Below are positions 7,046 through 30,474 of a DNA stretch of 35,496 bases, piece by piece (positions within the stretch are counted from its first letter, which is position 1; every line of letters starts with the position of its first letter). The position numbers and the translations under genes are program-made. The stretch is from a virus. The notes below the pieces were generated by a model. That model was not told the origin of the DNA. It did no database searches and saw only the letters and a list, made by a program, of their open reading frames with translations. The stretch spans positions 1 to 35,496 of the IMG/VR virus record IMGVR_UViG_3300035070_000839, one strand, 5' to 3'.

Positions 7046-9880
7046 ATGCCAAAGAAACCGTTGACAGATAAAGAAATACAAAACAGGCTAGAGGCTTTGG
7101 AAAGAAAAGGCATGCAAGATGGTGGTGAAATAGATGCTTTTGGAAGCACTAAAACATATACTGATATGTTTGGTAGAACTATAGGCAACAAAGATAGGGC
7201 TCAAGTAGATTTATCAAAAACTACACAAACAGCCGCACCAGATGGTACTTTTGTTAGAACATACTTTGATTATGATGGTAATCAAATTGGAGGTAGGGCT
7301 TCTGAAGTTGAAAGTCTAGGTGGAACAGAAACAAAAGAAGGCGAAACTCTTTTAGAAACAGACATAGATAGAACTCCTACATTTGAAAATATAAGTTCTA
7401 CACAAACACAAGATACTAATCCTTTTTCTTCTACTTATTTTCAAAAACAAGATAGAAAAATTGTACACTATGTTATATTTAACCCTGATAGTAAAAACCA
7501 AAAATATTATAGAAAAGAAGCATACGAAGGTGATGCACCTCCTGCAGGATATGTAGCAGGACCTTTTCCAGACGCTGCTTCTGCTACTGCTGCAGCTAAT
7601 GCTCTCATAGAACAATCAAAAAATAATGAAGGTGGGGACTCTGGTGGAGGCTCAGGCGGAGGCTCTGGTGGAGGTAGTGGGGGCAATGCTGATAGTAGAT
7701 TTACTGACGTTACAAACGAAGTAGCTTACCAAGCAGGTCTTACAGGTGTAGACCCTGTATTAAAACCAGGAGAACAAGTTACCCCTATACAACAAAACAT
7801 ACAGGCAGGAGAATTAGAAACTTCTATAGGTGCACAAGTTTCTGGAGATGTCACTGCAGATGCCACACAAATAACTGCAGAACAAATGAAAAAGTTAGAA
7901 GTTCAGGGTTATACTGATCCTTCCTCTGCAAATACTGTAGAAGCTTCAATTAAAGCTAGTGAAGCTGCAAAACAGTTAGCACTATCTGCACAAACAACAA
8001 ATGCACTTACAGGCTCTGCTACTGGTGCAACAGGAACTTTAAGTAATACTGCTATTGCATCATTAGGTCCACAAGTAGACAGTATAGATATTAAAAAAGC
8101 TGAAGGAACTTTTGAAACTCCTGGCTTAGAAGGGGTAACAGCAAGTACCATACCTTCTGCAAACCTTGTACAAACAGATTACAATGTTGCAACTGCTGCT
8201 GCTAAAAGAGAAGTACAGGCAGATGAGTTAGCCACTGCTGCAACTTTAGGACAAAATGTTGCACAAAGTGAAGCTCAAATACAATCAGAGTTAAACAATA
8301 AAGCATTAATGCAAGCTCAACAGACTACTGCTGCAGAAGAAGCAGGACTACCTGCTGTTGCTGCTGAACAGGCTATAGCAGATGTTCCTAAAGAAGCAAC
8401 TGTACAAGGTCAACTAGAAAATTTAATGGGGCAATTTGCAGGCGGTAAGACTCCTGCTTTTGCTGCTGCTGCTATAAGAAATGCAGAAGCTACTATGGCT
8501 GCTAGAGGTTTATCTGCAAGCTCTATGGCAGGTGCTGCAATTATGCAAGCTGCAATGGAAGCGTCTATTCCAGTAGCTGCACAAGATGCACAAATGTTTG
8601 CACAAATTAATCTAACTAATCTATCTAATAAACAACAAGTAGCTTTAGCTAATCAGGCTTCTGCTCAAAACATTGTATTGTCAAATTTAAATAATAGACA
8701 ACAGGCAGCTTTAGCAAATTCTACTAATGCTTTTAAATTACAATCAGATTCTTTGTCTAATATGCAACAAGCCGCTTTAGCAAATGCACAACTAAAAGCT
8801 GCTGTACAAGGACAGGAACTTACTAACAAACAACAAACTAATCTTACTAATGCTGCTAGATATGCTGAGGTAAATGGCATTAATCTAAGCAATGAACAAC
8901 AAACATCTTTAGCAAATAGTGCAGCAAATACTCAAGTAGCTTTAACTAATTTAAGCAATGGACAACAGACAGCTTTAGCAAATGCTCAAGTAGAGGCTGC
9001 TATTAGAGGACAAGAACTTACAAATGGTCAACAAGCTGCAGTAATAAATGCCGCAAGAATAGCAGAAATAAACAATTTAAAATTTACAGAAGAACAGCAA
9101 CGTAATTTAAATGAATCTAAAATAATGGAAAACATGACGTTAACAAACATGGATGCAGAAATGAAAGTAGCACTACAAAATGCTGCAACTTATGCAAATA
9201 TGGATTTAACTAATTTAAATAACAAACAACAAGCTCTTGTACAAAATGCTCAATCTTTTTTACAATTAGATATGGCTAACCTTACAAATAAACAACAAGC
9301 CGAAGTGTTAAAATTTCAAGCTAAAACTCAAGCACTATTTTCAGATCAAGCAGCAGACAATGCTAGACTGCAATTTAATGCACAATCAGAAAATCAAGTA
9401 GAACAGTTTTTTGCACAGCTAGGAGCACAGACTGCACAACAAAATGCAAATAGAGTTAGAGGTATGCTTGAGTTTAATGTTAATGAAGAAAACGCTATTG
9501 CTAAATTTAATTCATCTTTAACTGATGCTAGAGAAAAATTTAACGCTACTATGGTTAAAGAAATTAATCAATCTAATGCAGCTTGGCGTAGGCAATTAAA
9601 TACACAAAACACTGTTGCTCAAAATGAAGCAAACAGAATAAATGCCTTAAATACATTGCAAACTAGCCAAGCAGGTTTAAACAAAATTTGGCAACAATAT
9701 AGAGACGAAGCTAGTTGGTTAGTGCAACAACAATTTAATCAAGATCAGTATGTACATGAATTAGCAAAGATAGCTCTAAGTGGTGATGTAAACAGAGCTT
9801 TATTTAATGCTGAAGTTAAAAATGATGCTTGGTCTGCTATAGGTGGTCGAGTAGCAGATTGGGTATTCGATAAAATATAG
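7046..9880 (+). CDS. Large Ala/Gln/Asn-rich virion protein with 22-residue repeats (944 aa)
   Basis: This is probably a structural or internal virion protein, judged from its size and its place between fibre and other late genes. Residues 1-190 look globular. Residues of about 198-214 form a Gly/Ser linker of repeated GGGS. Residues 215-520 are Ala/Thr/Gln-rich. Residues 527-768 hold eleven tandem 22-residue units of the form (S/T/N)NxQQxxLxNxxxxxxxxxxxL, with exact register and no insertions. The C-terminal 170 residues are helical and richer in aromatics (WRRQLNTQN, WQQYRDEASWL). No enzyme motif is visible. The periodicity suggests a long alpha-helical rod or coiled coil. A GAAGG motif lies directly before the ATG, with GAGGG further upstream. 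Confidence 0.75.
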   Translation: MPKKPLTDKEIQNRLEALERKGMQDGGEIDAFGSTKTYTDMFGRTIGNKDRAQVDLSKTTQTAAPDGTFVRTYFDYDGNQIGGRASEVESLGGTETKEGETLLETDIDRTPTFENISSTQTQDTNPFSSTYFQKQDRKIVHYVIFNPDSKNQKYYRKEAYEGDAPPAGYVAGPFPDAASATAAANALIEQSKNNEGGDSGGGSGGGSGGGSGGNADSRFTDVTNEVAYQAGLTGVDPVLKPGEQVTPIQQNIQAGELETSIGAQVSGDVTADATQITAEQMKKLEVQGYTDPSSANTVEASIKASEAAKQLALSAQTTNALTGSATGATGTLSNTAIASLGPQVDSIDIKKAEGTFETPGLEGVTASTIPSANLVQTDYNVATAAAKREVQADELATAATLGQNVAQSEAQIQSELNNKALMQAQQTTAAEEAGLPAVAAEQAIADVPKEATVQGQLENLMGQFAGGKTPAFAAAAIRNAEATMAARGLSASSMAGAAIMQAAMEASIPVAAQDAQMFAQINLTNLSNKQQVALANQASAQNIVLSNLNNRQQAALANSTNAFKLQSDSLSNMQQAALANAQLKAAVQGQELTNKQQTNLTNAARYAEVNGINLSNEQQTSLANSAANTQVALTNLSNGQQTALANAQVEAAIRGQELTNGQQAAVINAARIAEINNLKFTEEQQRNLNESKIMENMTLTNMDAEMKVALQNAATYANMDLTNLNNKQQALVQNAQSFLQLDMANLTNKQQAEVLKFQAKTQALFSDQAADNARLQFNAQSENQVEQFFAQLGAQTAQQNANRVRGMLEFNVNEENAIAKFNSSLTDAREKFNATMVKEINQSNAAWRRQLNTQNTVAQNEANRINALNTLQTSQAGLNKIWQQYRDEASWLVQQQFNQDQYVHELAKIALSGDVNRALFNAEVKNDAWSAIGGRVADWVFDKI
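8624..9349 (+). repeat. Eleven tandem 66-bp (22-codon) repeats
   Basis: Each unit begins at an Asn-x-Gln-Gln-like core: SNKQQ, NNRQQ, SNMQQ, TNKQQ, SNEQQ, SNGQQ, TNGQQ, TEEQQ, DAEMK, NNKQQ, TNKQQ. The cores are exactly 22 codons apart. Nucleotide divergence is substantial while the protein pattern and length are kept, so the repeat is maintained by selection on the protein. Twenty-two residues equals two hendecads, a period expected for a right-handed helical coil. Confidence 0.9.
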
Positions 9881-9889
9881 GAGGATATT

Positions 9890-10306
9890 ATGGGTTGGTT
9901 TAGTGATTTTAAAGATGAGTATATTGATCCTATAGTGGATAATCCTGTTGGAGAATTTGTAGGAGAAGTTTTACTTGGTGTAGAAAGTGATGATAAACCA
10001 AAAAAAAGTAATGAAGATAAAATAGATGAAATCTATAGTTTTATGGAAGCTCAATTAGAAGAAGACAATAAAATAAGTGCTACAAGAGTTAAAGCATCTG
10101 CAGGAGACACTGCAGTTCCTAAAATAAATTTAAGCAAAGAATTAAGAGCTACAGACTACGCTAACATGCAAGTTCCCTCAGGTCAAAAAGTAGATTTTAA
10201 ACTGTTACAAGAAAATGCAAAAAGACAAAAAAGATTATATTCATTGGAACAATTTTTAATTAGTTCTGACAGATATAATTCTAAATATAAAAGAGAGAAA
10301 GTATAA
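9890..10306 (+). CDS. Hypothetical late protein (138 aa)
   Basis: This small late protein of unknown function begins MGWFSDFKDEYIDPIVDNPV. It has a mostly acidic middle and a basic C-terminal end (QKRLYSLEQFLISSDRYNSK). The start is clear, with AGGAGG 5 nt before the ATG, 9 bp after the upstream stop. The stop overlaps the next ATG as TAATG, so it is coupled to the 202-residue gene. It sits among the presumed virion genes, so a minor structural or chaperone role is plausible. No motif supports anything more specific. Confidence 0.7.
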   Translation: MGWFSDFKDEYIDPIVDNPVGEFVGEVLLGVESDDKPKKSNEDKIDEIYSFMEAQLEEDNKISATRVKASAGDTAVPKINLSKELRATDYANMQVPSGQKVDFKLLQENAKRQKRLYSLEQFLISSDRYNSKYKREKV

Positions 10307-10914
10307 TGCAAACAACACCTCCTATGCCTGAAAAACAGCAAGGTTCTAAAATAGATGCTGAGATTGATCCATTAGCTTTTCCTACGCCTGGACAATCTTT
10401 GACAGATGAACCTGGTCGTGCTAGCTTTGAACAACCACCAAGAGAAAATGATCCAGAAGCTGTTATCGCTGATATAAAAAGATATGTTTCTCAACCAGAG
10501 GTATCTGAAGAATTAGTAGCTCAGATGGCTTCAGGTTTTCCTGTAGAAATTATAGTTAACATGTTTGTTAAAGGCGGTGTAGCTGAAGGAAAATTTTCTG
10601 TAGATGTTGCAGAAATAGTAAAACCTGCATTAGCTATTATGCTTATGGTGATGGGGGTAGAAGCAGGCGTACCTGTAACTCCTTTTGCAGATGGACCTAT
10701 GGAAGAAGAAGAAAACATACAAGATAGAGTAAAAAGAAATATGAATAACCTAGACCCTGAATTAGCTTCTGAAATAAGAGCAGGGGAAGGTGAAGCAAGA
10801 CTAGCCAAACTTGAAGAAGAAATAACTTCTAGAACAGCAGCTAGAGATAAAATAAATTCAATGGAACAACCTGTAGAATCAGATGGTTCATTTTTAGAAA
10901 TGGAAGGAGAATAA
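10306..10914 (+). CDS. Hypothetical late protein (202 aa) with hydrophobic segment
   Basis: Function is not recognised. Residues 1-50 are Pro/Glu-rich and probably disordered. Residues 60-95 are helical. Residues 103-123 (IVKPALAIMLMVMGVEAGVP) form a hydrophobic segment that could cross or enter a membrane. The remainder is acidic and coiled (IQDRVKRNMNNLDPELASEI, then EARLAKLEEEITSRTAARDK). The start overlaps the preceding stop (TAATG). The following gene uses an AAGGAG site inside this gene's 3' end. Context suggests a virion or ejection accessory protein. A membrane-active helix would fit DNA ejection, but that is inference. Confidence 0.65.
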   Translation: MQTTPPMPEKQQGSKIDAEIDPLAFPTPGQSLTDEPGRASFEQPPRENDPEAVIADIKRYVSQPEVSEELVAQMASGFPVEIIVNMFVKGGVAEGKFSVDVAEIVKPALAIMLMVMGVEAGVPVTPFADGPMEEEENIQDRVKRNMNNLDPELASEIRAGEGEARLAKLEEEITSRTAARDKINSMEQPVESDGSFLEMEGE

Positions 10915-10915
10915 A

Positions 10916-13135
10916 ATGAGTGCGTTTTCATTCGCAGGAGGATTTGCTAAAAGACTTGGAGAAAGGCAGGATGCTGAAAGAAAAGCAAAAGCTGCGGCTG
11001 CAGAACAGGAAGCAGAAGATCAAAGATATCTTAAAAGGATTCTTTTATCAAATAAAGGTAAATTGGATGTAGCTGAGGCTAAAATAAAGGCAGACCAAGA
11101 TGCGGCAGAGAAAGAATTAAAAGTAAATGATTTTATAATAGACAACAAAAACTACAATCCTTTTGGAAATGAAGCATTATCTAATACAAATAAAAGTTTT
11201 TTCTTTGCAGGTGGTTTAGAAAAGTTAAGAAATATGACTGATGATGATAAGAAAGTAGTTAATAAACATATAAAAGATAACCCTGATGATCCACAAGTAC
11301 AAAAATTTATGTCTAATGTATCAGGCGGAGGAACTGCATGGTTAGCAGGGAATACTACCGTAACACAAGATGGAAAACAAGTTAGAAAATTAGCATTTGA
11401 GGGAACAGGTATTAATGTTCTTGATGATTTAATAATGAATAGTCTTACTAGTGAAGATTATAGAGCAAGACAAAAAAGATTATCTAAATATAATACCGAG
11501 TTATTTGCCTACTCTACAGACAATGGTCAATCTTACTTTATAAATGCACCAGATAAAATTCCTCAAAATGCAGATCAAGATAGTATATTTAAAATAGATA
11601 AAACTTTTTTTGGAGAGGAAAAGATTGCAGATAGATACCAAGAAGCACTAAGCAAGAATAAAGACGGTTCTGTTCCTAGACTATTATATGAAGGAGCATC
11701 ATTATATAATCTTTTACAAACAGAAGGAGCTAGTTCACAAAAAGTTGCTGAATTGTTTACAGAATTTATAAACCCTAAAAACAATGCTAATTTTAGAATA
11801 TCAAGTTTACCTGAAAACGAATATAAAGATTATGAATTAAAATTTTTAAACGATAATCCTATAGAAGGTAGATGGGTTACAGATGATAGCATGATAGTAG
11901 ACGTTATAGAAGGTTATACTTTAAGAAATTATGATTTTGATGGTAGGTCAGTTGTTAGTGGTCCAGAACCTGTAGATAATGATTTTTTAGAAGGTTTAAG
12001 GTCTTTAAATCAATTTACAGATGCTTTTGGCATATACTCTGCCAGACTTAAAAATATAGATGCTAACATACTTGATCTAAGGGGTGCAGGTGTTCCTTTT
12101 GTTACTCCAGGAACTTACGGTGAAGCTATTCAAAAATGGATACTTGGAGCTATTCCTCAAGGAGAAAATGTCTCTCCTTTATTTAAAAATGCTGCAGATA
12201 ATATTACAGAAATGCTTAAAGGTATGTTAGGTGACGTTCAAAATATAACAGAAGCTGTTATTAGGTATGGTGACAATGATACATTTAGTGCAAGGTCTTA
12301 TTATAGTAAAAGTGGTAATGAAGGTGAGGATAATAAAAGATTAGCTAGGGCAAGAGAGTTAGGTATTAATCTTGACCAAAAATTTACTAGGGCTGAATAT
12401 AATGAGTATGTAGAATCAATAAAAGGCATTAAAGACATTAGAAAAAAAATGTTAGCAGGGCAAGCTTTAAGCCCTCTTGAAAGACGAAAAGCAACTTTAA
12501 TATCTATGGCTTATACCTATGCATCATTTATTCAAGGAGGTAGTGGAGGAACTAGAACTGTTTCTGATGCTGACGTTCTTTTTGCGTTAAGAGCTTTAGG
12601 AGCAGAAAGTTTTGATGCAGGAATAAATACTAATACAATGAATGATATTATAAGAATTTTTGATGATAAGGTAAAAGATATAACAAGAAGAGGTATATCT
12701 AATAATTTTATAACAAAAAATTCAGCTAATCTTTCTAGACCAAAAGAAGTTCAAAATGTAGTAAATAGCATGATTCAAAATGTAGGAGAAAACGACATAC
12801 GCAGTTATACTGCTTACGTTGGTGGTAATGATCTTTATATAGCAGATATACGTTTACAAGATGCTATGATAAGAAACTCTGTAACTTATTCTCAAAGAGA
12901 AGCTGAAGAACAAGTTTGGGAACAGTATTCTACTAATGAAGAGTTACGAAACCAAATAGAAGAAGAGTATACAAACCTAGAAAACCTAGATGCTAATAGT
13001 CCTATTATGATAGATAAAGTACAAAACCTTATAGAAACTTATACAATATTAGCAGGTGCAAGCTCAAGTGCTAGTGAGGAACAAAAAGCAGAATTTAAAG
13101 CTAAAAGAAAAAAATTACTAGATAAATTAAAATAA
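10916..13135 (+). CDS. Probable internal virion/ejection protein (739 aa)
   Basis: A large late protein with an N-terminal Phe/Gly-rich start (MSAFSFAGGFAKRLGERQDA), then a strongly charged Ala/Lys/Glu coiled coil to about residue 75, then a long mixed globular region. No signal peptide or catalytic motif is recognised. Its size and position after the tail genes, just before a 1576-residue protein, parallel the internal-core genes of podoviruses (the gp14-gp16 region of T7). That parallel is positional only. The AAGGAG site lies 6 nt from the ATG. Confidence 0.6.
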   Translation: MSAFSFAGGFAKRLGERQDAERKAKAAAAEQEAEDQRYLKRILLSNKGKLDVAEAKIKADQDAAEKELKVNDFIIDNKNYNPFGNEALSNTNKSFFFAGGLEKLRNMTDDDKKVVNKHIKDNPDDPQVQKFMSNVSGGGTAWLAGNTTVTQDGKQVRKLAFEGTGINVLDDLIMNSLTSEDYRARQKRLSKYNTELFAYSTDNGQSYFINAPDKIPQNADQDSIFKIDKTFFGEEKIADRYQEALSKNKDGSVPRLLYEGASLYNLLQTEGASSQKVAELFTEFINPKNNANFRISSLPENEYKDYELKFLNDNPIEGRWVTDDSMIVDVIEGYTLRNYDFDGRSVVSGPEPVDNDFLEGLRSLNQFTDAFGIYSARLKNIDANILDLRGAGVPFVTPGTYGEAIQKWILGAIPQGENVSPLFKNAADNITEMLKGMLGDVQNITEAVIRYGDNDTFSARSYYSKSGNEGEDNKRLARARELGINLDQKFTRAEYNEYVESIKGIKDIRKKMLAGQALSPLERRKATLISMAYTYASFIQGGSGGTRTVSDADVLFALRALGAESFDAGINTNTMNDIIRIFDDKVKDITRRGISNNFITKNSANLSRPKEVQNVVNSMIQNVGENDIRSYTAYVGGNDLYIADIRLQDAMIRNSVTYSQREAEEQVWEQYSTNEELRNQIEEEYTNLENLDANSPIMIDKVQNLIETYTILAGASSSASEEQKAEFKAKRKKLLDKLK

Positions 13136-13144
13136 GGATAGAAT

Positions 13145-16100
13145 ATGGAAGAGGAAGAAGAAGTAGTATCTGAAGTAGAAACTGTTACAGAAGAAACACC
13201 TGAAGTAGAAACTGTTACAGAAGAAACACCTGAAGTAGAAACTGTTACAGAAGAAAATACATTGCCTAATCAAATAGCAAATATGTTTCGTAAAACAGGT
13301 AAAGATGTTTTAGGTCTTCAAACTAGATTAACTTCAGAACCTGATTTAGTATACGATCCTTTACTTAAAGAAGTAGCTAGACGTAGAGATGGTTTTAATA
13401 AAGAAGGTAGAAAAAGTCCTTTTGCTACTAAGGATGGTGAATTTGATGTTCAAGGAGCTACATTTGATGCTTATGGATCATTAAGTAAAAATCAAAAAGA
13501 AGCTATTAATAGAGATGAAATGTATAGTGTAATAGAAGAAAAACTACAAGACGTAGGTCCTTACTATACTTTTGATTATGATAGAGAAAGCTCAGATAAA
13601 ATCCTTACACCACGTTTTAGAAGTGCGGAAAGAAGTGCGGTAACTGCTGTAGGCGAAGGAGTTAGGGCAGGCGTTAAGGGATTGTTTGAAATAGGTGAAA
13701 TAGGTGTAGGGCTTACTGGTGAGTTTATAGACTTATTTAATACTCCATCTGAAATGGCAAGGTTTTTAGATGATAGAGTAAAATATCAAAATTATCCTAA
13801 AATAGGTTCAAGAGTAGAGCCAGGAGAATATGGAACTGCAAACCTTACCCAAGAAGAAATTAAAAATTTTGGACCTTTAGCACAGTTTACTGTAAAAAGA
13901 AAAATAACAGAAGAAAGTAAAAATAATATGGTAAGTCAAATGTACTTTAATTTACCAGATGATATAAAAGATAGTATAGGCGACATAGATGATTATGAAG
14001 AGATATTAGGTTTAAATAAATTTGGAGGACCTTTATCAGGAGTTGTTGAAGGTATAGGAAAAACTCAAGATGCTTTAGGGGCTGTAGGTTTAGGCGATCA
14101 AATAAGTGTAGAGTTTAATTTACAAGGTAATCTTGATAGGGGTGAAAGAGACGCAGCTAATTTAATTGCAGAATTTGTAACTAGTATGACTGTATTTGAT
14201 GATGTTCCAAAATATTTTCTAGGTAAAAGTTTAAGAGAATCAACAGAAACAGGTATATCAAAAGGTTTAATAAGAGCAGCGGATGGTGGTATTATTGATC
14301 TCGACACATATACATTTAATTACATAAAAGAAAACTTATCAGATGCAAAAGGGTTTGACAGAACTGTTAGTTATTTGCTTGCCCCATTAATTAGGCAAGG
14401 CATGTTAATGGGTTATGAAGGTTCAGGAACTAAAATAACAAAAGCAAGAGCTTTACAATACATTAACAATAATCCTAGTTTAATAAAACCTGTGCTTACA
14501 TATAGTTTTATGGCAGCTACTATGGCTGACTTTATAGAAAATACAGCAAATCAAGAAAGATATGATTTTATGGGTATGGACTTATTTAAATCTTCTACAT
14601 TAGAAGGTAGTCCTATAGCATCAACTCTAGGGACTATAGCAGCATTTATAACTGCTCCTACTACAGCTCATATTTTATGGAATACAAATGCCGCAGGAAG
14701 CTTTTTAGATGTAATGAGAGTGCTTCCTAGAAAACTTTCAGGTAATAACGAAGGTCTTGATAAAATTATTGAGTTCTGGTCAAGCCCTATAGATGACATA
14801 ATAGCAGGAAGAGCAGGTATAAGTTCTGAATATTACGCAAGTTTATCTCCTACCGAAAAGGCTGCTACTGATAAACTACTTAAAGACAAAGCATCTAGAA
14901 ATTTTATAATTAACATGGTAACAGCCATGAGAAGAAACAGAGATGAAAACCCTGAATTGTATAATGCAGGAAGAGCACACTTCTTTGAAATGATAGAACT
15001 GATGGACAACGTAGCAGGTAGGTTACGTGAAATTGTAGACCCTAAGACTGGTAAACCAAAATATCAAGAAGACTTTATAAAGTCTATAACAGAATTAACT
15101 TTTGGTGAAATTTTAGGTATGCCATTAATAAAAGGTTTAGAACAAAATCTTGCTGCAGGAGGAAGTAGTGTAGCATTAAGTCCAGGAGGCAATCCTGCAA
15201 AAGCAATAGTAAATCAAAACGATCAATCTGTAATGTTATCTGCTGCTAAAGATAAATCAACTAGAACAGCTATAGTATTAGATATGATACTAAAAGATAT
15301 AGTTCAATCTGAAGGGTTTGATGCAACTAATGTAGTGAATCAAAACATAATTACTTTAAGAAATTGGGCAAGAACAACTGTAGAAGAAAATGCAAAGAAG
15401 ATTGATGAAAGAAGATATATTGTCGAGGAGCTAACAAAAAATGATAATTCAGGAAATCTTGCAAATGACGTACCAAGAGTCGAAGAAGAAGTAGCAGGAG
15501 GTATGAATAGAGATGATTCTATTAAGTCTTTTAATGGTGAAGAATATATAGAGACTACAAAAGTTGATCCTAGGTTAGCACCTGATGAAAGCACTAATAA
15601 AATATCAAGTACACAAAGATATAATGCAACTGTGGAAACTGAAGGAAACACTAAAACAATTATTAATTATATCTTAGATAGATTAGTTGATACAAAAGCA
15701 GGTTTATATGATGAAGCTTTTACTGTTAACGGAAAAGAATTAATACTTTCTGAAAATAGTTTTCAAGGATTACTTAAAAAATTTAGAGAAGGTGAAAGTC
15801 AAAAAACAGGCGGTGCAGGTACAGATTTAAGACCTAGGCATACATATAGTGCAAGGCTTGATTTTAATAAAGGCAAAAAAATAGAACGTACATTTGATCC
15901 TGTAAATGTAACAGAAGCATTAGAAGGTTTTGATGGTCAAGCAAATGCAGCAATAATAAAATTGAAGATGAAGCTAGAAGATGCAGTAAGTGAAACTCAA
16001 CAAAATAAAATTAATAAAGAAATAAAAAAAATAGAAGCACAAAGAGCTGTAGTTAAAACAAGATTACAAAACAACGATCCTGTTGTAAATAACAGAGAAT

Positions 16101-17875
16101 TAACTAATATATTTAGTGATGAAACTTTTGATTTTTTTGATTATAAATATTTTAAATTTCAAGATATAAACAGAGAAAGAGGTTTACTAGCACAGGCTGT
16201 TTCTAAAAGACAAGCTAAAGATATAAATAAAGTAACAGATTTAGATGCATTTAATTTTATTATGGATAATGTAACAGATTTATTTTCAGAAGTTCCAGAA
16301 AATTTACTTAATGCAAATATCTACTTTAGGGACAACGTTGCACCTGTAATAAAATCTAGGACAGGAAATACATATATACAAAATCAAGGAACAGGTCAAA
16401 GTTTAATGGATGAGAAAGATGTTCTTTTAAATCTTTTGAACGACATGGAAGGTGATGCTTTTGTTAGAATTGTAAATCAAGTAATAAAAGAATCTGAAGT
16501 AGCAGACGTACCATTTCAATTACACAAGTATGTTGATGGTGTAAAGACAGATGAAATTTATGATGCAGACTTAGGAGAATCTATAACAAGAGTTATTTTA
16601 GAAAGACTTGCTATAAAAAATCTACTAGACAAAGGGGATAGTAGTTATAAAAACTTACAAGAAACAATAGAATATATAGAAATGAACACAGACTGGATGC
16701 CACAAGGCACTTATGCTAAAATAGCTGCATTAAAAAATGATGGTCCTAAAACAGAAGTTAAATCAGAATATCAAAAAAGTTTAGAAAAAGTTGAACAACG
16801 TTCAGTAGACAGAGAAGTAGCAAGAGATATGGAAGATTTAAAACAAAGTTTTGAAGGAATAGCACAACCCTCTACAAGCACTCAGCAATTAATACAAGGA
16901 TTACAATTAGAAAAAAGAAATTTAGCAGAGGAAAGTTTAGAAATAAACGAAGAGTTTACCACTATTGCAGATCAAATAAAAAATTTAAAAGGTCCTGAAA
17001 GAGAGGCTGCAAGATTTACTATATATAGAGGTTTATTAGATGAATACTTTGATCTTGATACAGGCGGTATGAAAATGGTACCAGTTACGTTTGGTGGTGA
17101 ACAAATTCAAGTTCCTGCAATATTTGAAGTTATGAAAAAAAATGGAGAGGTAATAGCAGATTTAATTGGACCAAAGGCAGTAGATGATTTAGCTTTCTTA
17201 ACTCAATTCCATACTGCTATGGTAAATTCTGTAGCTAAACCTGTTTTAGATATGTCACAAAGAAGTAGAGGTAAAAATATTTTTAACCCTAGTAGTGTAG
17301 ACCCACTTTCTATACTAAGTGAACAGAGAAGACCTGCAGCTATATTAAATCCTCAAGAACAATTATATTACCGACAGTTTGCTCCAGAAGGAAATAGGGT
17401 AGGTTACTCAGGAGTGTCTCCAGAATCTACTTCACAGGTTTTAGGTTCAAGATTCTATAACATGGCTAGAGGTTTTGTAAGTCCACAGTTTGTTGCTATA
17501 GAATTTTATATTAAATCATTGCCTCAGGGACAAGTAAAATTAATTGAAAACATGTTACAACAAGGACCTGAAGCAGCAGGGGTATTTAAAGATATGTTCT
17601 TTGATGGTAACTATTCTGCAGGTATAGGTGTAAGAAGAAGACTTACAAATATGACATTTGCAGTAGCTATCAATGGAGCAGCAGACCCTATGCAATTTAA
17701 TGAAGAAGATAGTATAATAGACTTCTCTGCGTTCCGTAATAAAGATGGTACTGAACTTTCTCAAGATCAAAAACAACAGCTTGCAGGAGAGTTAATACAA
17801 TACGTTAGCAGCATAAGTGATGAGGAATTAATTGCATTTTTAGAATCAGGAGAAATGCAAAAAGAAGCAGGTTAA
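13145..17875 (+). CDS. Giant late protein, probable internal virion/ejection protein (1576 aa)
   Basis: This is the second longest gene in the window. The N-terminus is very acidic and carries an exact decapeptide repeat EVETVTEETP (two copies plus a diverged third). Then come globular and helical regions. A segment near residues 460-520 is more hydrophobic (FMAATMADFIE, then IASTLGTIAAFITAPTTAHI) and could be membrane-active. Coiled-coil-like charged stretches lie near residues 930-980 and 1200-1300. No lytic transglycosylase or polymerase motif was identified. By size and place as the last of the large late genes it resembles T7 gp16-type ejection proteins, but no sequence signature confirms it. 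The exported-protein gene follows after 19 bp. Confidence 0.6.
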   Translation: MEEEEEVVSEVETVTEETPEVETVTEETPEVETVTEENTLPNQIANMFRKTGKDVLGLQTRLTSEPDLVYDPLLKEVARRRDGFNKEGRKSPFATKDGEFDVQGATFDAYGSLSKNQKEAINRDEMYSVIEEKLQDVGPYYTFDYDRESSDKILTPRFRSAERSAVTAVGEGVRAGVKGLFEIGEIGVGLTGEFIDLFNTPSEMARFLDDRVKYQNYPKIGSRVEPGEYGTANLTQEEIKNFGPLAQFTVKRKITEESKNNMVSQMYFNLPDDIKDSIGDIDDYEEILGLNKFGGPLSGVVEGIGKTQDALGAVGLGDQISVEFNLQGNLDRGERDAANLIAEFVTSMTVFDDVPKYFLGKSLRESTETGISKGLIRAADGGIIDLDTYTFNYIKENLSDAKGFDRTVSYLLAPLIRQGMLMGYEGSGTKITKARALQYINNNPSLIKPVLTYSFMAATMADFIENTANQERYDFMGMDLFKSSTLEGSPIASTLGTIAAFITAPTTAHILWNTNAAGSFLDVMRVLPRKLSGNNEGLDKIIEFWSSPIDDIIAGRAGISSEYYASLSPTEKAATDKLLKDKASRNFIINMVTAMRRNRDENPELYNAGRAHFFEMIELMDNVAGRLREIVDPKTGKPKYQEDFIKSITELTFGEILGMPLIKGLEQNLAAGGSSVALSPGGNPAKAIVNQNDQSVMLSAAKDKSTRTAIVLDMILKDIVQSEGFDATNVVNQNIITLRNWARTTVEENAKKIDERRYIVEELTKNDNSGNLANDVPRVEEEVAGGMNRDDSIKSFNGEEYIETTKVDPRLAPDESTNKISSTQRYNATVETEGNTKTIINYILDRLVDTKAGLYDEAFTVNGKELILSENSFQGLLKKFREGESQKTGGAGTDLRPRHTYSARLDFNKGKKIERTFDPVNVTEALEGFDGQANAAIIKLKMKLEDAVSETQQNKINKEIKKIEAQRAVVKTRLQNNDPVVNNRELTNIFSDETFDFFDYKYFKFQDINRERGLLAQAVSKRQAKDINKVTDLDAFNFIMDNVTDLFSEVPENLLNANIYFRDNVAPVIKSRTGNTYIQNQGTGQSLMDEKDVLLNLLNDMEGDAFVRIVNQVIKESEVADVPFQLHKYVDGVKTDEIYDADLGESITRVILERLAIKNLLDKGDSSYKNLQETIEYIEMNTDWMPQGTYAKIAALKNDGPKTEVKSEYQKSLEKVEQRSVDREVARDMEDLKQSFEGIAQPSTSTQQLIQGLQLEKRNLAEESLEINEEFTTIADQIKNLKGPEREAARFTIYRGLLDEYFDLDTGGMKMVPVTFGGEQIQVPAIFEVMKKNGEVIADLIGPKAVDDLAFLTQFHTAMVNSVAKPVLDMSQRSRGKNIFNPSSVDPLSILSEQRRPAAILNPQEQLYYRQFAPEGNRVGYSGVSPESTSQVLGSRFYNMARGFVSPQFVAIEFYIKSLPQGQVKLIENMLQQGPEAAGVFKDMFFDGNYSAGIGVRRRLTNMTFAVAINGAADPMQFNEEDSIIDFSAFRNKDGTELSQDQKQQLAGELIQYVSSISDEELIAFLESGEMQKEAG
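13172..13261 (+). repeat. 30-bp tandem repeat, three units
   Basis: Two identical units (13172-13201 and 13202-13231) and a third that diverges only in its last bases (13232-13261). They encode EVETVTEETP, EVETVTEETP and EVETVTEENT. Perfect identity of the first two suggests recent slippage, so copy number may vary between strains. Confidence 0.9.
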
Positions 17876-25259: not shown

Positions 25260-26831
25260 TTAATTAGAAAAAATTTCTTTAGTGTCTAGCCAGTTGCTTC
25301 CGATTTTAATCTCAATGCCTACAGGCATATCGTACTCAATGCCCCATCTTCTCTTAGCTTGCTGAGGGATGGAGAGCATACATTCTTTGACAATTTCAAT
25401 TACTTGATCTTCTTCATCAGGATGTACATCCACCACTATACTATCATGTACTGTATTACAAAGCAAGGACTTAAGTTTCTTTTTCTTAAACTCCTCGAAG
25501 GTAAGCACTAAAGCAGACGGAAGTAAATCTGCTGTTGCAAACCCCTGTACAGGATAATTCTTTACGCTAGTGCCATGTGTAATGCCTCTAGCTGTTCTCT
25601 TTACATAGGGAAATCTGTATTCCCTACCAGAAGGTAGACTCACAACTTTATACTTCAAAGCCTCTTGAGCTAACCTATCATGCCATTCACCAATTCCAGG
25701 ATATACTTCTGTAAATTGATAATAGTATCTGTGTACATGTTCAGGCAATCCTATACCAGTAGCACCATATAAAGGTGCAAAAGTATGTGCCTTTGCATTT
25801 TGTCTTTCTTCTGACGTAATCTCTTCTTTATCTTTACCAGTTATAATCGTAGCAGTCAAGTTGTGTACATCAACACCACCCTTGACATTTTCGTATACAT
25901 GTTTATCTTTACTTAAGAACCCTGCTACTCTGTACTCTAGCTGTGCGTAATCCCCTTCAAGAATCTTACCCCCTTCAAACCTAGACACAACTGCCCTACG
26001 TACTGGAAATGTTTTACCCCTAGGCATGTTTTGAAAGTTAGGATTCCTAGATGACAGCCTGCCTGTACTTGTAACACACTGCATAAACTGAGGATGTATT
26101 CTATCTGAGTAATCTAAATTTTTTTCTATACCTTCTATAAAAGTTTTTAGGTAAGTCTTAATTGCATTGTATCTAAGGTAGGCTTTTATAAATGTAACTG
26201 CCTCTTCGTTACCTCTCTCGTAATACAAAGACAAAGCATCTGAATCAGTCTTAAATCCTGCACTGCTACATGCTTTTGTATCTAAAGGTACTAACTTAAA
26301 TCCTGCTACCTGTCCTGTAGGTATATATTGTATACCAGTGCCTGAACAAGACTTACAGATATATCTAGCAGTGCCCCAAGAACCGTCTTTTCTTTTCTTA
26401 GCTACTTTGCCATAACCTTTGCAAGGGTTACATCTGGTAGCTTCTGTTCTGTACTGCACTGTAGTGTTGTTTACAACCGACCTCTTAAATTGTGCATCAG
26501 TCATGTAGGCTCTACGTTTTGGTTTTTTTGTATTACCTCTAACTTCGTAGCCTAAGTTAAAAACATTTGTCCAAGTCTTTTTATTATTTACTGCTCTAGA
26601 AAATAATAACTTAGACCTATCATCAGGGCTAGATAAATTTATAGGTGTATCACCCATAACTCTAGACACTTCTTTGTTTAAGAATATACCAAGTTCTTCT
26701 AATTCTTTTGTGTACTCATCTTTAACAAGGTTTAGAGCTTGACGGTCTATCTTGATGCCGTCTCTTTCCATTCCTGCTAAAACTTTTGTTACCTCAAAAG
26801 ACAGGTATAGTGTAGGCTGCAATCTGCTCAA
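25260..26831 (-). CDS. Family-A DNA polymerase, polymerase domain with DnaJ-type zinc finger (523 aa)
   Basis: This is the replicative polymerase. Residues 1-30 match the segment that normally follows the exonuclease domain (VLAGMERDGIKID). Residues 134-164 hold two DnaJ central-domain motifs: CNPCKGYG (C134, C137) and CKSCSGTG (C159, C162). The polymerase core follows: RLSSRNPNFQNMPR near 258-271, motif A GDYAQLEYR (D294), motif B R343-K347-F351-YG356, and motif C VHDS (H462, D463). F351 aligns with E. coli Pol I F762. The listed start is TTG 26831, with AAGGA 7 nt upstream. The exonuclease is in a different frame and overlaps by 38 bp, so the enzyme is either two subunits or made by frameshift. 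The DnaJ insertion is the HMO-2011-type hallmark. Confidence 0.92.
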   Translation of the reverse strand: MSRLQPTLYLSFEVTKVLAGMERDGIKIDRQALNLVKDEYTKELEELGIFLNKEVSRVMGDTPINLSSPDDRSKLLFSRAVNNKKTWTNVFNLGYEVRGNTKKPKRRAYMTDAQFKRSVVNNTTVQYRTEATRCNPCKGYGKVAKKRKDGSWGTARYICKSCSGTGIQYIPTGQVAGFKLVPLDTKACSSAGFKTDSDALSLYYERGNEEAVTFIKAYLRYNAIKTYLKTFIEGIEKNLDYSDRIHPQFMQCVTSTGRLSSRNPNFQNMPRGKTFPVRRAVVSRFEGGKILEGDYAQLEYRVAGFLSKDKHVYENVKGGVDVHNLTATIITGKDKEEITSEERQNAKAHTFAPLYGATGIGLPEHVHRYYYQFTEVYPGIGEWHDRLAQEALKYKVVSLPSGREYRFPYVKRTARGITHGTSVKNYPVQGFATADLLPSALVLTFEEFKKKKLKSLLCNTVHDSIVVDVHPDEEDQVIEIVKECMLSIPQQAKRRWGIEYDMPVGIEIKIGSNWLDTKEIFSN

Positions 26832-27357
26832 TGCTCTTTCCTTCTTGTTTAGACTGACTTACAGCTACTTCATAAGTAGACTGCACATCAGCGATTCCGT
26901 ATTCTTCTACTATGTCTGCAGGTATTATATCAAATCCTATACCTTCTTTCAAGTAGTTTTCTAAAATTTCTTTCTTTTTCTTAGTTGACGTTTTATGCCT
27001 ACGACAACATTCATCCAAGCTAAGAGGTACTTTAACACCCCTAGCCCATACGTAATCAAACACCATAGTATCATATACAGCACCATCATATGTAAAGCCA
27101 GACGCAAACAACCACTGCAAATCAAATTTTATATTGTGACCTAGCAGTACGTCTGCTCTGTCTAGTGCATCTTGTACTATCTTCATGTTGTTTGGTGTAG
27201 GGTCTTTCTTTGAGTGATAGAACCACACATACTGTACAGGGTTATCATCTTCCTTAAAGCCTACAGATACTAGCTGATTACCTCTAGTGTAAGGTGACGG
27301 ATCAGAACCTTTGTCTGTTTTTATAAAGGTAGTTTCTACATCTAATGTTAAAATCAT
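26794..27357 (-). CDS. DNA polymerase 3'-5' exonuclease (DEDD) domain (187 aa)
   Basis: This is the proofreading domain of the family-A polymerase, here as its own ORF. Exo I is D6-x-E8 (LTLDVETT), Exo II is LGHNIKFDLQWL (N75, D79), and Exo III is Y153-x3-D157 (YGIADVQSTYE), so all the catalytic residues are present. The C-terminal end falls where the polymerase domain would begin. The last codons are TTT TGA. The polymerase frame is +1 relative to this one and open across the overlap. The start ATG overlaps the helicase stop by 4 bp (ATGA). Confidence 0.88.
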   Translation of the reverse strand: MILTLDVETTFIKTDKGSDPSPYTRGNQLVSVGFKEDDNPVQYVWFYHSKKDPTPNNMKIVQDALDRADVLLGHNIKFDLQWLFASGFTYDGAVYDTMVFDYVWARGVKVPLSLDECCRRHKTSTKKKKEILENYLKEGIGFDIIPADIVEEYGIADVQSTYEVAVSQSKQEGKSIEQIAAYTIPVF

Positions 27358-28584: not shown

Positions 28585-28613
28585 GTTATATTATATTTAT
28601 TTTAATTATGCAA
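28585..28613 (-). promoter_or_regulatory. Sigma70-like promoter for helicase-polymerase genes
   Basis: Leftward TTGCAT (28608-28613), 17-bp spacer, TATAAC (28585-28590). The -35 box overlaps the stop codon region of the upstream oxygenase gene. The helicase ATG is 26 bp below the -10 box. Confidence 0.5.
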
Positions 28614-29346
28614 GTTCAAAACCACCTGCAATATGTCCTTCTTTTGCTTTAGGTATTTCTACTGGTTTTCCATCTTTATCAAATTTTTGTTGGTGCACTT
28701 CTATATTCATACTAAACGATCTTCTTTCACCCTCACTTTTAAAAGGGTATACCATGTGTATGAGGTCGGCAGGAAATACAAAAAAATCACCAACTGTAGG
28801 CTTTACCATTAAAGTATGTTGGTGCATTTTACCAGACGAACCATGTAAAAACTCTATATGCCCATTAGCAGGATAATGATCTTTATAATCTTCTTCCCAC
28901 TCTTCTTGTATATTCTCAGGTAATCTTAGGTAGCCAACGCAAGACATACTACACTCAGTATGTATATGTGCAGGATTATACTCGCCTGCAAATTGTCTAA
29001 CTATCCATGCTGATTTATATTGTATGCCATATCCTGTACCAGGTGCTAAACTTTTAAATGATCTGTTTAAATCAGTATCTAAATACTTACTTATGACATT
29101 GTTAAAAAATTCTGTATGTTTTTCTAACTCATTAGACTCTATTAAAAATTCTTGTTTAAGTTTACCTACAAGATTATTAGAATGGTCTAACTTTTTAATT
29201 TTTTCTTCATTCTTTATAGTTTTGTTAACATACTTATTTAATCTTCTTACTAAGTCCATAGGCATCTTTGCGTACATTATCATAGGTGCAAAAGGAAACA
29301 AAGGAGATATTTGACCTTCAGGTGCTTTTGAAAAATCTGTAGGCAT
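28606..29346 (-). CDS. 2OG-Fe(II) oxygenase-like protein (246 aa)
   Basis: Probably a non-haem iron dioxygenase using 2-oxoglutarate. The double-stranded beta-helix core has AHIHTECSMSCVGYLRL (H127, H129), then GDFFVFPADLIHMVYPF (H197) and RRSFSMNIEV (R208/R209). This follows the pattern of the phage-frequent 2OG-FeII_Oxy_5 type family (H-x-H, distal H, R for 2OG). The substrate is unknown; phage members are often suspected to act on proteins or nucleic acids, without general proof. The start has AAGGAG 6 nt upstream. It is the second of two adjacent oxygenase genes between holin and helicase. Confidence 0.75.
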   Translation of the reverse strand: MPTDFSKAPEGQISPLFPFAPMIMYAKMPMDLVRRLNKYVNKTIKNEEKIKKLDHSNNLVGKLKQEFLIESNELEKHTEFFNNVISKYLDTDLNRSFKSLAPGTGYGIQYKSAWIVRQFAGEYNPAHIHTECSMSCVGYLRLPENIQEEWEEDYKDHYPANGHIEFLHGSSGKMHQHTLMVKPTVGDFFVFPADLIHMVYPFKSEGERRSFSMNIEVHQQKFDKDGKPVEIPKAKEGHIAGGFELA

Positions 29347-29380: not shown

Positions 29381-30013
29381 TCATTTATCCACTCTATCTT
29401 TAATTGTAAAATTAAAACCTACCATAATTCTATTTTTTTTGCCTGTATATGTCGCTTGATAATGTTGCACATAAGAAGGAAATAAAATTAATTTTCCATC
29501 TTCTGGAATAATTCTAATACTATTTTCAGAATGATGCACTGATATTAAATCATGATAATTACTATACACAGGACTTATAAAAACTGTATGACCTCCACAA
29601 TCTTTATCTCCTGCTTGCAAATAAAAAATTCCACACCAACTGCAATTAGAATGACCATGAGTTTCATGAGAACTATTAGTGCTTCCTATATGATACCAAC
29701 TGTCCGTAAATAAAATTTTATAATCTTCTTCTTCATCTAATAAAATATTTATAGAATATTTAATGCACTCACCTATATATGCTATAGAATTTTGTACAGC
29801 ACTTTCTTTGTCATGAAAAAAATCAAATGTAGATTCTTTTAAATTATGTTTTAACTGAGGAGCTATATTAGATTCAATTCCTTTTGTATTTAAAGATTTT
29901 ATATATTTTTTTAAATCTAAAGCTATGTTTTTATTATTAAATTTAAAAAAAGTTGTTTTAAAAAAATCTGCTTTTACATCTTTTGCTACATGTTCTATAA
30001 AATTTCCAGACAC
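29381..30013 (-). CDS. 2OG-Fe(II) oxygenase-like protein (210 aa)
   Basis: The preferred start is GTG 30013, overlapping the holin stop as TAGTG with AGGAG 6 nt upstream. A longer ATG reading from 30052 lies inside the holin gene. The core motif is SSHETHGHSNCSWCGIFYL (H119, H121), then GKLILFPSYVQHYQA (H184) and KKNRIMVGFNF (R195), the same layout as the neighbouring oxygenase. Overall similarity between the two is low outside these motifs, so they are distant paralogues or independent arrivals. The substrate is unknown. The N-terminal 90 residues are Lys/Phe-rich and helical. Confidence 0.75.
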   Translation of the reverse strand: MSGNFIEHVAKDVKADFFKTTFFKFNNKNIALDLKKYIKSLNTKGIESNIAPQLKHNLKESTFDFFHDKESAVQNSIAYIGECIKYSINILLDEEEDYKILFTDSWYHIGSTNSSHETHGHSNCSWCGIFYLQAGDKDCGGHTVFISPVYSNYHDLISVHHSENSIRIIPEDGKLILFPSYVQHYQATYTGKKNRIMVGFNFTIKDRVDK

Positions 30014-30474
30014 TATTTGCTCCTTGCTTTGAATAAACGATTCCCAAACCAAAAGCTAACTATAGCGGCAAAGATAGTTTGACTTTCCTCATCCCATGCC
30101 TCTAGTATAGCAGGTAATACATCTCTTCCTTCTTGCACTGCCATTATCACGTAGGTGATTTTAACAAATGCAAATATAGCAAAGAAAGCATATGTTATAA
30201 CTGGTCTTACTGAGGCTTGTAAAGCAGATACAAATGTAGATTTGTTTGCTTGTGCCAACGACTCAGCATGTTTGTACAAACCTTTTACTTCTTCTATGTC
30301 TGCTTCTGCATCTAGTTCTTTTAATTTTAGTTTGCTTAGTTCTGATGCGTACTTAGCTTTCGCCTCTAGCATCAAAAGTTCTTGTTTGTTGGCTTGTTTC
30401 TTTTCAAAGAATCCAAGAATACTGGGGAGAAAAGAAGTCCCAAAGCCGAGAACGGAGCCTAATAATGATATCAT
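30013..30474 (-). CDS. 3-TM holin (GTA holin family-like, 153 aa)
   Basis: A membrane protein of the GTA_holin_3TM type. It has an N-terminal hydrophobic segment (ISLLGSVLGFGTSFLPSILG), a charged coil (residues 25-80), then SVRPVITYAFFAIFAFVKIT and a third segment near the C-terminus (IFAAIVSFWFGNRLF). The Arg-Pro before the middle TM helix is typical. It overlaps the ribonucleotide reductase stop by 4 bp and the oxygenase start by 3 bp, so it is co-transcribed with nucleotide-metabolism genes on the early strand. That is unusual for a holin, while holin-like genes also end the late operon. Confidence 0.75.
   Translation of the reverse strand: MISLLGSVLGFGTSFLPSILGFFEKKQANKQELLMLEAKAKYASELSKLKLKELDAEADIEEVKGLYKHAESLAQANKSTFVSALQASVRPVITYAFFAIFAFVKITYVIMAVQEGRDVLPAILEAWDEESQTIFAAIVSFWFGNRLFKARSK

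Follow-up and report, generated by a model that had tools for sequence, protein, structure and literature searches.

The window, meaning the whole stretch of 35,496 nucleotides analysed here (IMG/VR record IMGVR_UViG_3300035070_000839), agreed with Puniceispirillum phage HMO-2011 in its polymerase, helicase, ribonucleotide reductase, and gene order. Two traits of the HMO-2011 type, late-gene synteny and ribonucleotide reductase, were both present. The polymerase matched DNA_pol_A (4.6e-60) and gave a further match to DnaJ_CXXCXGXG (E 7.9e-4, 20.1 bits), which was under the curated cut-off of 32.7. The DNA polymerase was apparently encoded in two overlapping ORFs, 25260–26831 (−) and 26794–27357 (−); the 3'-5' exonuclease domain was separated from the polymerase domain with its putative partial DnaJ region, whereas HMO-2011 has one annotated gene. 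A frameshift, an intron-like split, or a true two-gene form may lie behind this. Two adjoining 2OG-Fe(II) oxygenase genes were found at 28606–29346 and 29381–30052 (−).

The features are listed by position in the window, with strand and basis.

153–1679, +: protein of 508 aa, weak profile match to head closure Hc3 of the P22 gp10 type (phrog_578, 6.4e-9)
7046–9880, +: rod protein ORF, 944 aa (P0001), with relatives in 27 phage records (25 distinct phages)
7046–8392, +: N-terminal region, aa 1–449, variable, Pro/Gly-rich in the family (proline counts; LysM in one relative)
8393–8623, +: conserved helical head domain, aa 450–526, the first anchor (family conservation; helical in AlphaFold2 at low confidence)
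8570–9586, +: rod from anchor P509 to anchor W847, proline-free after P509 (HMM anchors; proline count)
8624–9349, +: eleven 22-residue repeats, aa 527–768 (self-comparison of the translation)
9350–9583, +: C-terminal part of the rod, single QFNA-type hendecads, aa 769–846 (sequence)
9584–9877, +: conserved C-terminus, WRRQ.. WQQYRDEASW .. SAIGG, aa 847–944, with the second anchor at its start
9890–10306, +: small ORF, 138 aa (ORF list)
10306–10914, +: gene D, 202 aa, conserved helical partner (synteny; AlphaFold2)
10916–13135, +: gene E, 739 aa, fast-evolving, in an ejection-type position (synteny)
13145–17875, +: gene F, 1576 aa, largest of the block, in an ejection-type position (synteny)

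The best PHROG of the 508-aa protein was phrog_5107 (2.5e-72), labelled amidase. The 138-aa ORF had no homologue among the relatives' ORFs of at least 120 aa. A gene D homologue was present in 309 of 344 loci and lay no more than 2.5 kb downstream of the rod gene in 305 of 306. The AlphaFold2 model of gene D was helical, with a pLDDT of 85. Foldseek returned no PDB match for this model at E ≤ 0.001 and a single viral match, an unnamed 183-aa protein (2e-7) that is probably an orthologue. A similarity of gene D to designed PPR proteins in the PDB (3.5e-5 over 49 positions) was judged to be a repeat artefact. Sequence searches with genes E and F gave no PDB match. The N-terminus of gene F contained a perfect 30-bp repeat of 2.9 copies (13170–13256, +) coding for EVETVTEETP-type units; in contrast to the rod repeats, its copies do not differ in DNA, so it is probably recent.

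In the relatives, the rod gene was often followed by an extra gene and then by a protein of about 170–210 aa (gene D). Beyond gene D, most relatives encoded proteins of about 300–1000 aa and then of about 1000–1900 aa. The order of this block resembles that of the P22 ejection genes 7-20-16. A peptidoglycan (cell-wall) hydrolase gene was inserted in the block in CRP-603, and CRP-207 had in the same place a LysM with a weak, sub-cut-off GH19 match. From this gene position, the rod protein is a putative virion component; a search of open-licence papers found no virion proteomics covering it. PMC9038755 reports that several core genes of the HMO-2011-type phage group have no known function.

The sequence-only reading had described eleven exact 22-residue repeats at 8624–9349, with a register that never slips over 242 residues although the DNA has diverged. 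Both points were borne out. The repeats occupied aa 527–768 as 11 × 22 residues with no slip in register, and self-identity of the window rod at lag 22 was 0.368, whereas 2000 shuffles gave a maximum of 0.204 (lags 5–44). Pairwise DNA identity of the 11 units averaged 0.49 (range 0.35–0.73), and pairwise protein identity averaged 0.32 (range 0.00–0.73). Parts of the NxQQ core, which that reading gave as recurring every 22 residues, were gone in units 8 and 9. Tandem Repeats Finder output did not include the array. Beyond the 11 units, the helical register went on in steps of 11 residues until about aa 847, as seen from lag 11 towards the C-terminus. The rod is longer than the 22-residue units that stand out in it. 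P509 was the final proline of the window protein, and the 435 residues after it were proline-free. The spacing from P509 to W847 was 338 residues, which equals 8 plus 30 hendecads.

The helical character of the rod was investigated by composition, modelling, and hendecad wheels. Among 165 relatives, proline was found in 0 of 43,855 rod residues and in 4114 of 63,701 residues of the N-terminal regions. The N-terminal region (aa 1–449) is probably disordered or modular. AlphaFold2 predicted helices only for window aa 440–944 (52 sequences), one of them of 113 residues, with a mean pLDDT of 54 and a pTM of 0.20. Because this confidence is low, the model was taken to indicate helix propensity and no fold. 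On the mid-rod hendecad wheel, hydrophobic residues lay on two sides (positions 6 and 9; position 4 with Ala at 0 and 7), with charged positions 1 and 5 opposite. The Gln/Asn stripe proposed from the sequence alone was recovered as an amide-rich stripe at positions 3 and 10 between the hydrophobic sides. In the class with a 162-residue spacing, positions 3 and 10 were charged (28–53%) where other classes show the amide stripe. The mid-rod wheel would fit helix packing on both sides, as in a ring. A harmonic test of a two-faced versus a one-faced helix did not discriminate, with the trimeric control P22 gp26 giving a similar ratio. The sequence suggests a continuous hendecad helix, and the rod probably forms an oligomeric coiled coil.

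A tblastn search with the rod protein matched 27 phage records, representing 25 distinct phages. The matches were HMO-2011, CRP roseophages, HTVC pelagiphages, CHOED, two Aeromonas phages, Slicky01, phiM6, Rhizobium phages, and ctYwJ313, with MQM1 and RHph phages among the homologues. Genome-level examination covered 23 of the 25 distinct named phages (RHph_I3_11 and RHph_N3_19 were left out). The homologues in named phages were annotated as "hypothetical protein", apart from one "huntingtin", an implausible label, and one record with no feature at the place. Scans of IMG/VR raised the relatives to hundreds, in at least 344 loci of HMO-2011-type and related podophages.

The relatives shared the head domain (..QGQL..ARGLxxSSM..PIAxQDAQ; in the window, ATVQGQL..ARGLSASSM..PVAAQDAQ..) and the C-terminal motif (..QSNAxWRRQ..), and they differed in the N-terminus and the number of repeats. 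The CRP-235 homologue carried LysM. A C-terminal S74 domain (Chaperone of endosialidase) was above the curated cut-off in the homologues of CRP-235, CRP-3, CRP-738, and CRP-212, and was detected at E ≤ 0.001 in 5 of 54 scanned relatives. An S74-chaperone-like motif was present in 57 of the 89 members of the 162-residue class and was seen in that class only. GxxxG occurred within the last 60 aa of 76 of the 148 relatives without the S74 motif. Loci L100, L101, L104, and L105 represented a rod-protein subgroup ending in the S74 intramolecular chaperone domain. The head domain was also found in Pseudoalteromonas phage vB_Pun_Y3, in a protein of 519 aa whose gene precedes that of a giant protein; a wider spread of the RGLxSSM domain across podophages was confirmed no further than a few records. 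Loci L349–L352 were apparently identical phage contigs binned under Flavobacteriales TMED123 and Neomarinimicrobiota MED589 MAGs. The MAG titles of these contigs are uninformative on the host, because the bins belong to two different phyla.

The spacing between the two anchors was determined in at least 338 ORFs with both anchors from the 344 loci; the window is one member of this set, which contains redundancy. Anchors were placed by HMM, an earlier regular-expression count having covered 74 of 88 loci and then 237 of 338 ORFs. A non-redundant set of 165 of the 338 ORFs was obtained by reducing sequences with over 50% shared 4-mers, and 163 non-redundant sequences were used for a tree.

Among the 338 relatives listed, the spacing took 26 values between 140 and 866 residues and equalled 8 modulo 11 in 337. 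The N- and C-terminal lengths of the same proteins were spread over all eleven classes modulo 11. The sole out-of-phase rod among those listed was that of locus L050 (spacing 666), which from its sequence appears to have a two-residue deletion. In the non-redundant set, 164 of 165 rods followed 8 modulo 11, with 25 lengths. The quick tree of 163 sequences required at least 42 length changes, one of which shifted the class modulo 11. Contigs from a different collection were used as an out-of-sample set. All 15 loci with both anchors (12 distinct rods) followed the rule, the rods contained zero proline, and one new length, 118, was added; the second anchor was missing in 2 of 17 loci. In total, 27 lengths were obtained, and all but one rod fell in one class. 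Examples were 151 in phiM6, 173 in the CHOED homologue AHK11873.1, 228 in HMO-2011, and 338 in the closest relatives of the window. The rods ranged from 118 to 866 residues across the family, or about 18–130 nm as one helix.

The parity of the hendecad number divided the non-redundant set into 113 and 51 relatives. Since both parities occur, the structural unit is 11 and not 22. On this sequence evidence, the true unit is the 11-residue hendecad, and the periods of 22 and 110 are higher-order sequence repeats. Long 22-based rods had a 110-residue super-repeat (5 × 22), with lag-110 self-identity of 0.40–0.45 in the 558–668 classes, and many length classes were 110 apart (228, 338, 448, 558, 668; 316, 426, 536, 756, 866). 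Long rods with this super-repeat were those of L037–L050 and L231, and a 55-residue half-step was visible in the 866 class.

The long regular helical rod of the sequence-only reading was consistent with the absence of proline, with the phase kept in 337 of the 338 relatives listed, and with the low-confidence prediction of helices only. Its view of the 22-residue period as two hendecads was right about the hendecad basis and needed correction in the unit, 51 of the 165 non-redundant relatives having the other parity. It had also proposed comparing repeat number among relatives, which proved constant in close relatives and variable family-wide. Loss of the 22-residue spacing, which it had named as evidence against itself, did occur in part of the family; the 11-residue phase survived. 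It had considered a periplasm-spanning or ruler-like ejection element possible; a length that varies between 118 and 866 residues (~18–130 nm) does not agree with one fixed periplasm-spanning ruler, and the ruler idea is unsupported in the form given.

The rod encoded by the late-module gene is built of hendecads, stays in phase without a break, and is strongly constrained. The reading of the whole that we tentatively favour is that ejection-module hendecad rods form a parallel oligomer, packed as a DNA-conducting tube or sheath. Each subunit would begin with an N-terminal region that varies, followed by a small helical head, one unbroken hendecad rod, and a helical, often glycine-zipper C-terminus. 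With hendecad geometry of 11 residues per 3 turns, the rods would form a parallel oligomeric coiled coil. Since all subunits have to keep the same phase over the full rod, the length would change by whole hendecads only. Gene context suggests that the protein is part of the ejection module. Lying side by side, the rods could build a straight tube or sheath of helices, with a lining mostly of Gln/Asn/Ser, which may conduct or escort DNA through the cell envelope. The working principle would be the same as that of the phiX174 H tube described in PMC7354561 and, at the EM level, of Sf6 gp12 described in PMC4755594.

The mod-11 rule, the tree, the out-of-sample rods, the zero proline, the AlphaFold2 helices, and the wheel stripes were counted for a tube, as were the ejection-type block position, the CRP-603 hydrolase, the CRP-235 LysM, and the H and gp12 precedents. 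Counted against it were the charged stripe and S74-like motif of the 162-residue class, since the S74 domain is known from trimeric fibres. The non-discriminating harmonic test, the loss of the H hendecad match under a fair null (see below), and the poor AlphaFold2 confidence also weighed against it. In addition, kinship with P22 or phiX174 proteins was not established, the longest rod (~130 nm) exceeds a periplasm, and unequal crossing-over between repeats alone would give whole-unit steps.

The tube has a strong rival, considered possible, in a needle or fibre made of a homotrimeric coiled coil. The rod would then be an external shaft with its N-terminus tailward, and its length would set the reach of the tip. 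The C-terminal S74 domains of the four CRP homologues and of 5 of 54 scanned relatives are consistent with a fibre, and a length of up to about 130 nm is easier to reconcile with an external fibre than with a component inside the particle or the periplasm. The gene order is like P22 5-4-10-26-14-7-20-16, with the rod gene at roughly the place of needle gene 26; however, the profile match to P22 gp26 was not significant (score 1.2, E 0.051). Also counted for a needle or fibre is that trimeric fibres commonly have polar core layers of Gln/Asn. The presence of hydrophobic residues on both of two opposite helix sides argues against it, as one side would be exposed in a simple trimer. S74 is also missing in most members, which often have a glycine-rich tail instead (GxxxG in 76 of 148).

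It is unlikely that the rod remains inside the head or tail as a core or scaffold element, or as something like a tape measure, and plays no part in conducting DNA. Its long regular helix, the virion-module position, and a length fixed within subgroups (338 in the closest relatives of the window) would fit; but the seven RCA phages described in PMC6918029 all have short tails and icosahedral heads, and a short tail leaves nothing obvious to measure. Moreover, judged by eye, rod length had no obvious relation to the lengths of neighbouring products. Neutral repeat turnover, in which the 11- and 22-residue steps come from unequal DNA recombination within a low-complexity spacer of no fixed structure, is very improbable. 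The tandem origin is plain, the 110-residue super-repeats point to block duplication, and AlphaFold2 confidence was low. Unequal recombination between repeats would explain whole-unit steps but leaves the missing small indels and prolines unexplained: one rod was out of phase among the 338 listed, and proline was absent from 43,855 residues, whereas the N-terminal part has free lengths and prolines. The window units kept their register at a DNA identity of just 0.49.

A bolder form of the favoured tube reading, which we regard as rather doubtful, is a hendecad-tube family with up to 866 residues (~130 nm) per subunit. It would be an on-site assembled, length-adjustable DNA conduit of ocean podophages and the dsDNA-phage counterpart of the phiX174 H tube, with a length evolving only by whole helical repeats.

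Annotations call the late proteins of this phage block hypothetical. With hundreds of sequences and 27 lengths, the anchor spacing amounts to an experiment by nature on the phase of a coiled coil, and the length rule indicates that the rod functions as a single unit, in phase over its entire length. The rule is a falsifiable handle on envelope crossing by short-tailed ocean phages with SAR11, SAR116, and Roseobacter hosts. A tube, if true, would be far longer than the phiX174 precedent; a fibre, if true, would be an unusually long hendecad coiled coil. The analysis suggests that an uncharacterised protein of a widespread ocean phage group forms a precisely phased rod or tube, perhaps for DNA passage through the envelope.

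Sequence searches of PHROGs, Pfam, and the PDB with the rod gave nothing convincing, and the open-licence literature yielded no description of a phage hendecad or 22-residue repeat protein of the rod type. The family profile had no significant match to P22 gp26, gp7, gp20, and gp16 or phiX174 H. In this search of seven sequences the hits, that to gp26 included, were at noise level, with E of 0.05 or worse; E was 6.4 for H and 6 for P22 gp20. Pairwise BLAST of the rod against P22 and phiX174 proteins gave E down to 0.001 with composition correction off. A hendecad likeness to phiX174 H was reached by 39 of 20,000 simple shuffles but by 1185 of 20,000 under a fair column-permuted null, and is therefore not claimed.

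The P22 gp26 tail needle is likewise a long coiled coil, with its gene at roughly the same late-operon place. Its coiled coil has heptads, and the rod phase is 11, not 7. It is described as a trimeric needle (PMC3741392). Sf6 gp12 and P22 gp20 also come from podophages, and the late genes are similarly ordered there. According to PMC4755594, Sf6 gp12 assembles in vitro into a decameric tube with a 25 Å channel; the rod of the window family is far longer and proline-free, and P22 gp20 had no profile match. The phiX174 H protein, which acts in DNA delivery, is described in PMC7354561 as a proline-poor hendecad helical rod with an amide-rich stripe and a glycine-rich hydrophobic end. These features are similar to those of the rod family, in which the amide stripe is seen in mid rods and gives way to charged residues in the 162-residue class, and the hendecad helix without proline asked of an H-type tube was present in the rod family. 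H differs in having only three hendecads followed by heptads, a 120-residue tube, and an ssDNA phage as its source, and homology to the rod was not found. The nearest counterparts were HMO-2011 phage1322_25 and the CRP, HTVC, CHOED, MQM1, phiM6, and RHph homologues, which have the same gene block and different rod lengths. Against these systems, the rod protein was rated as a long coiled coil of a phage, unusual in its hendecads and in its quantised length.
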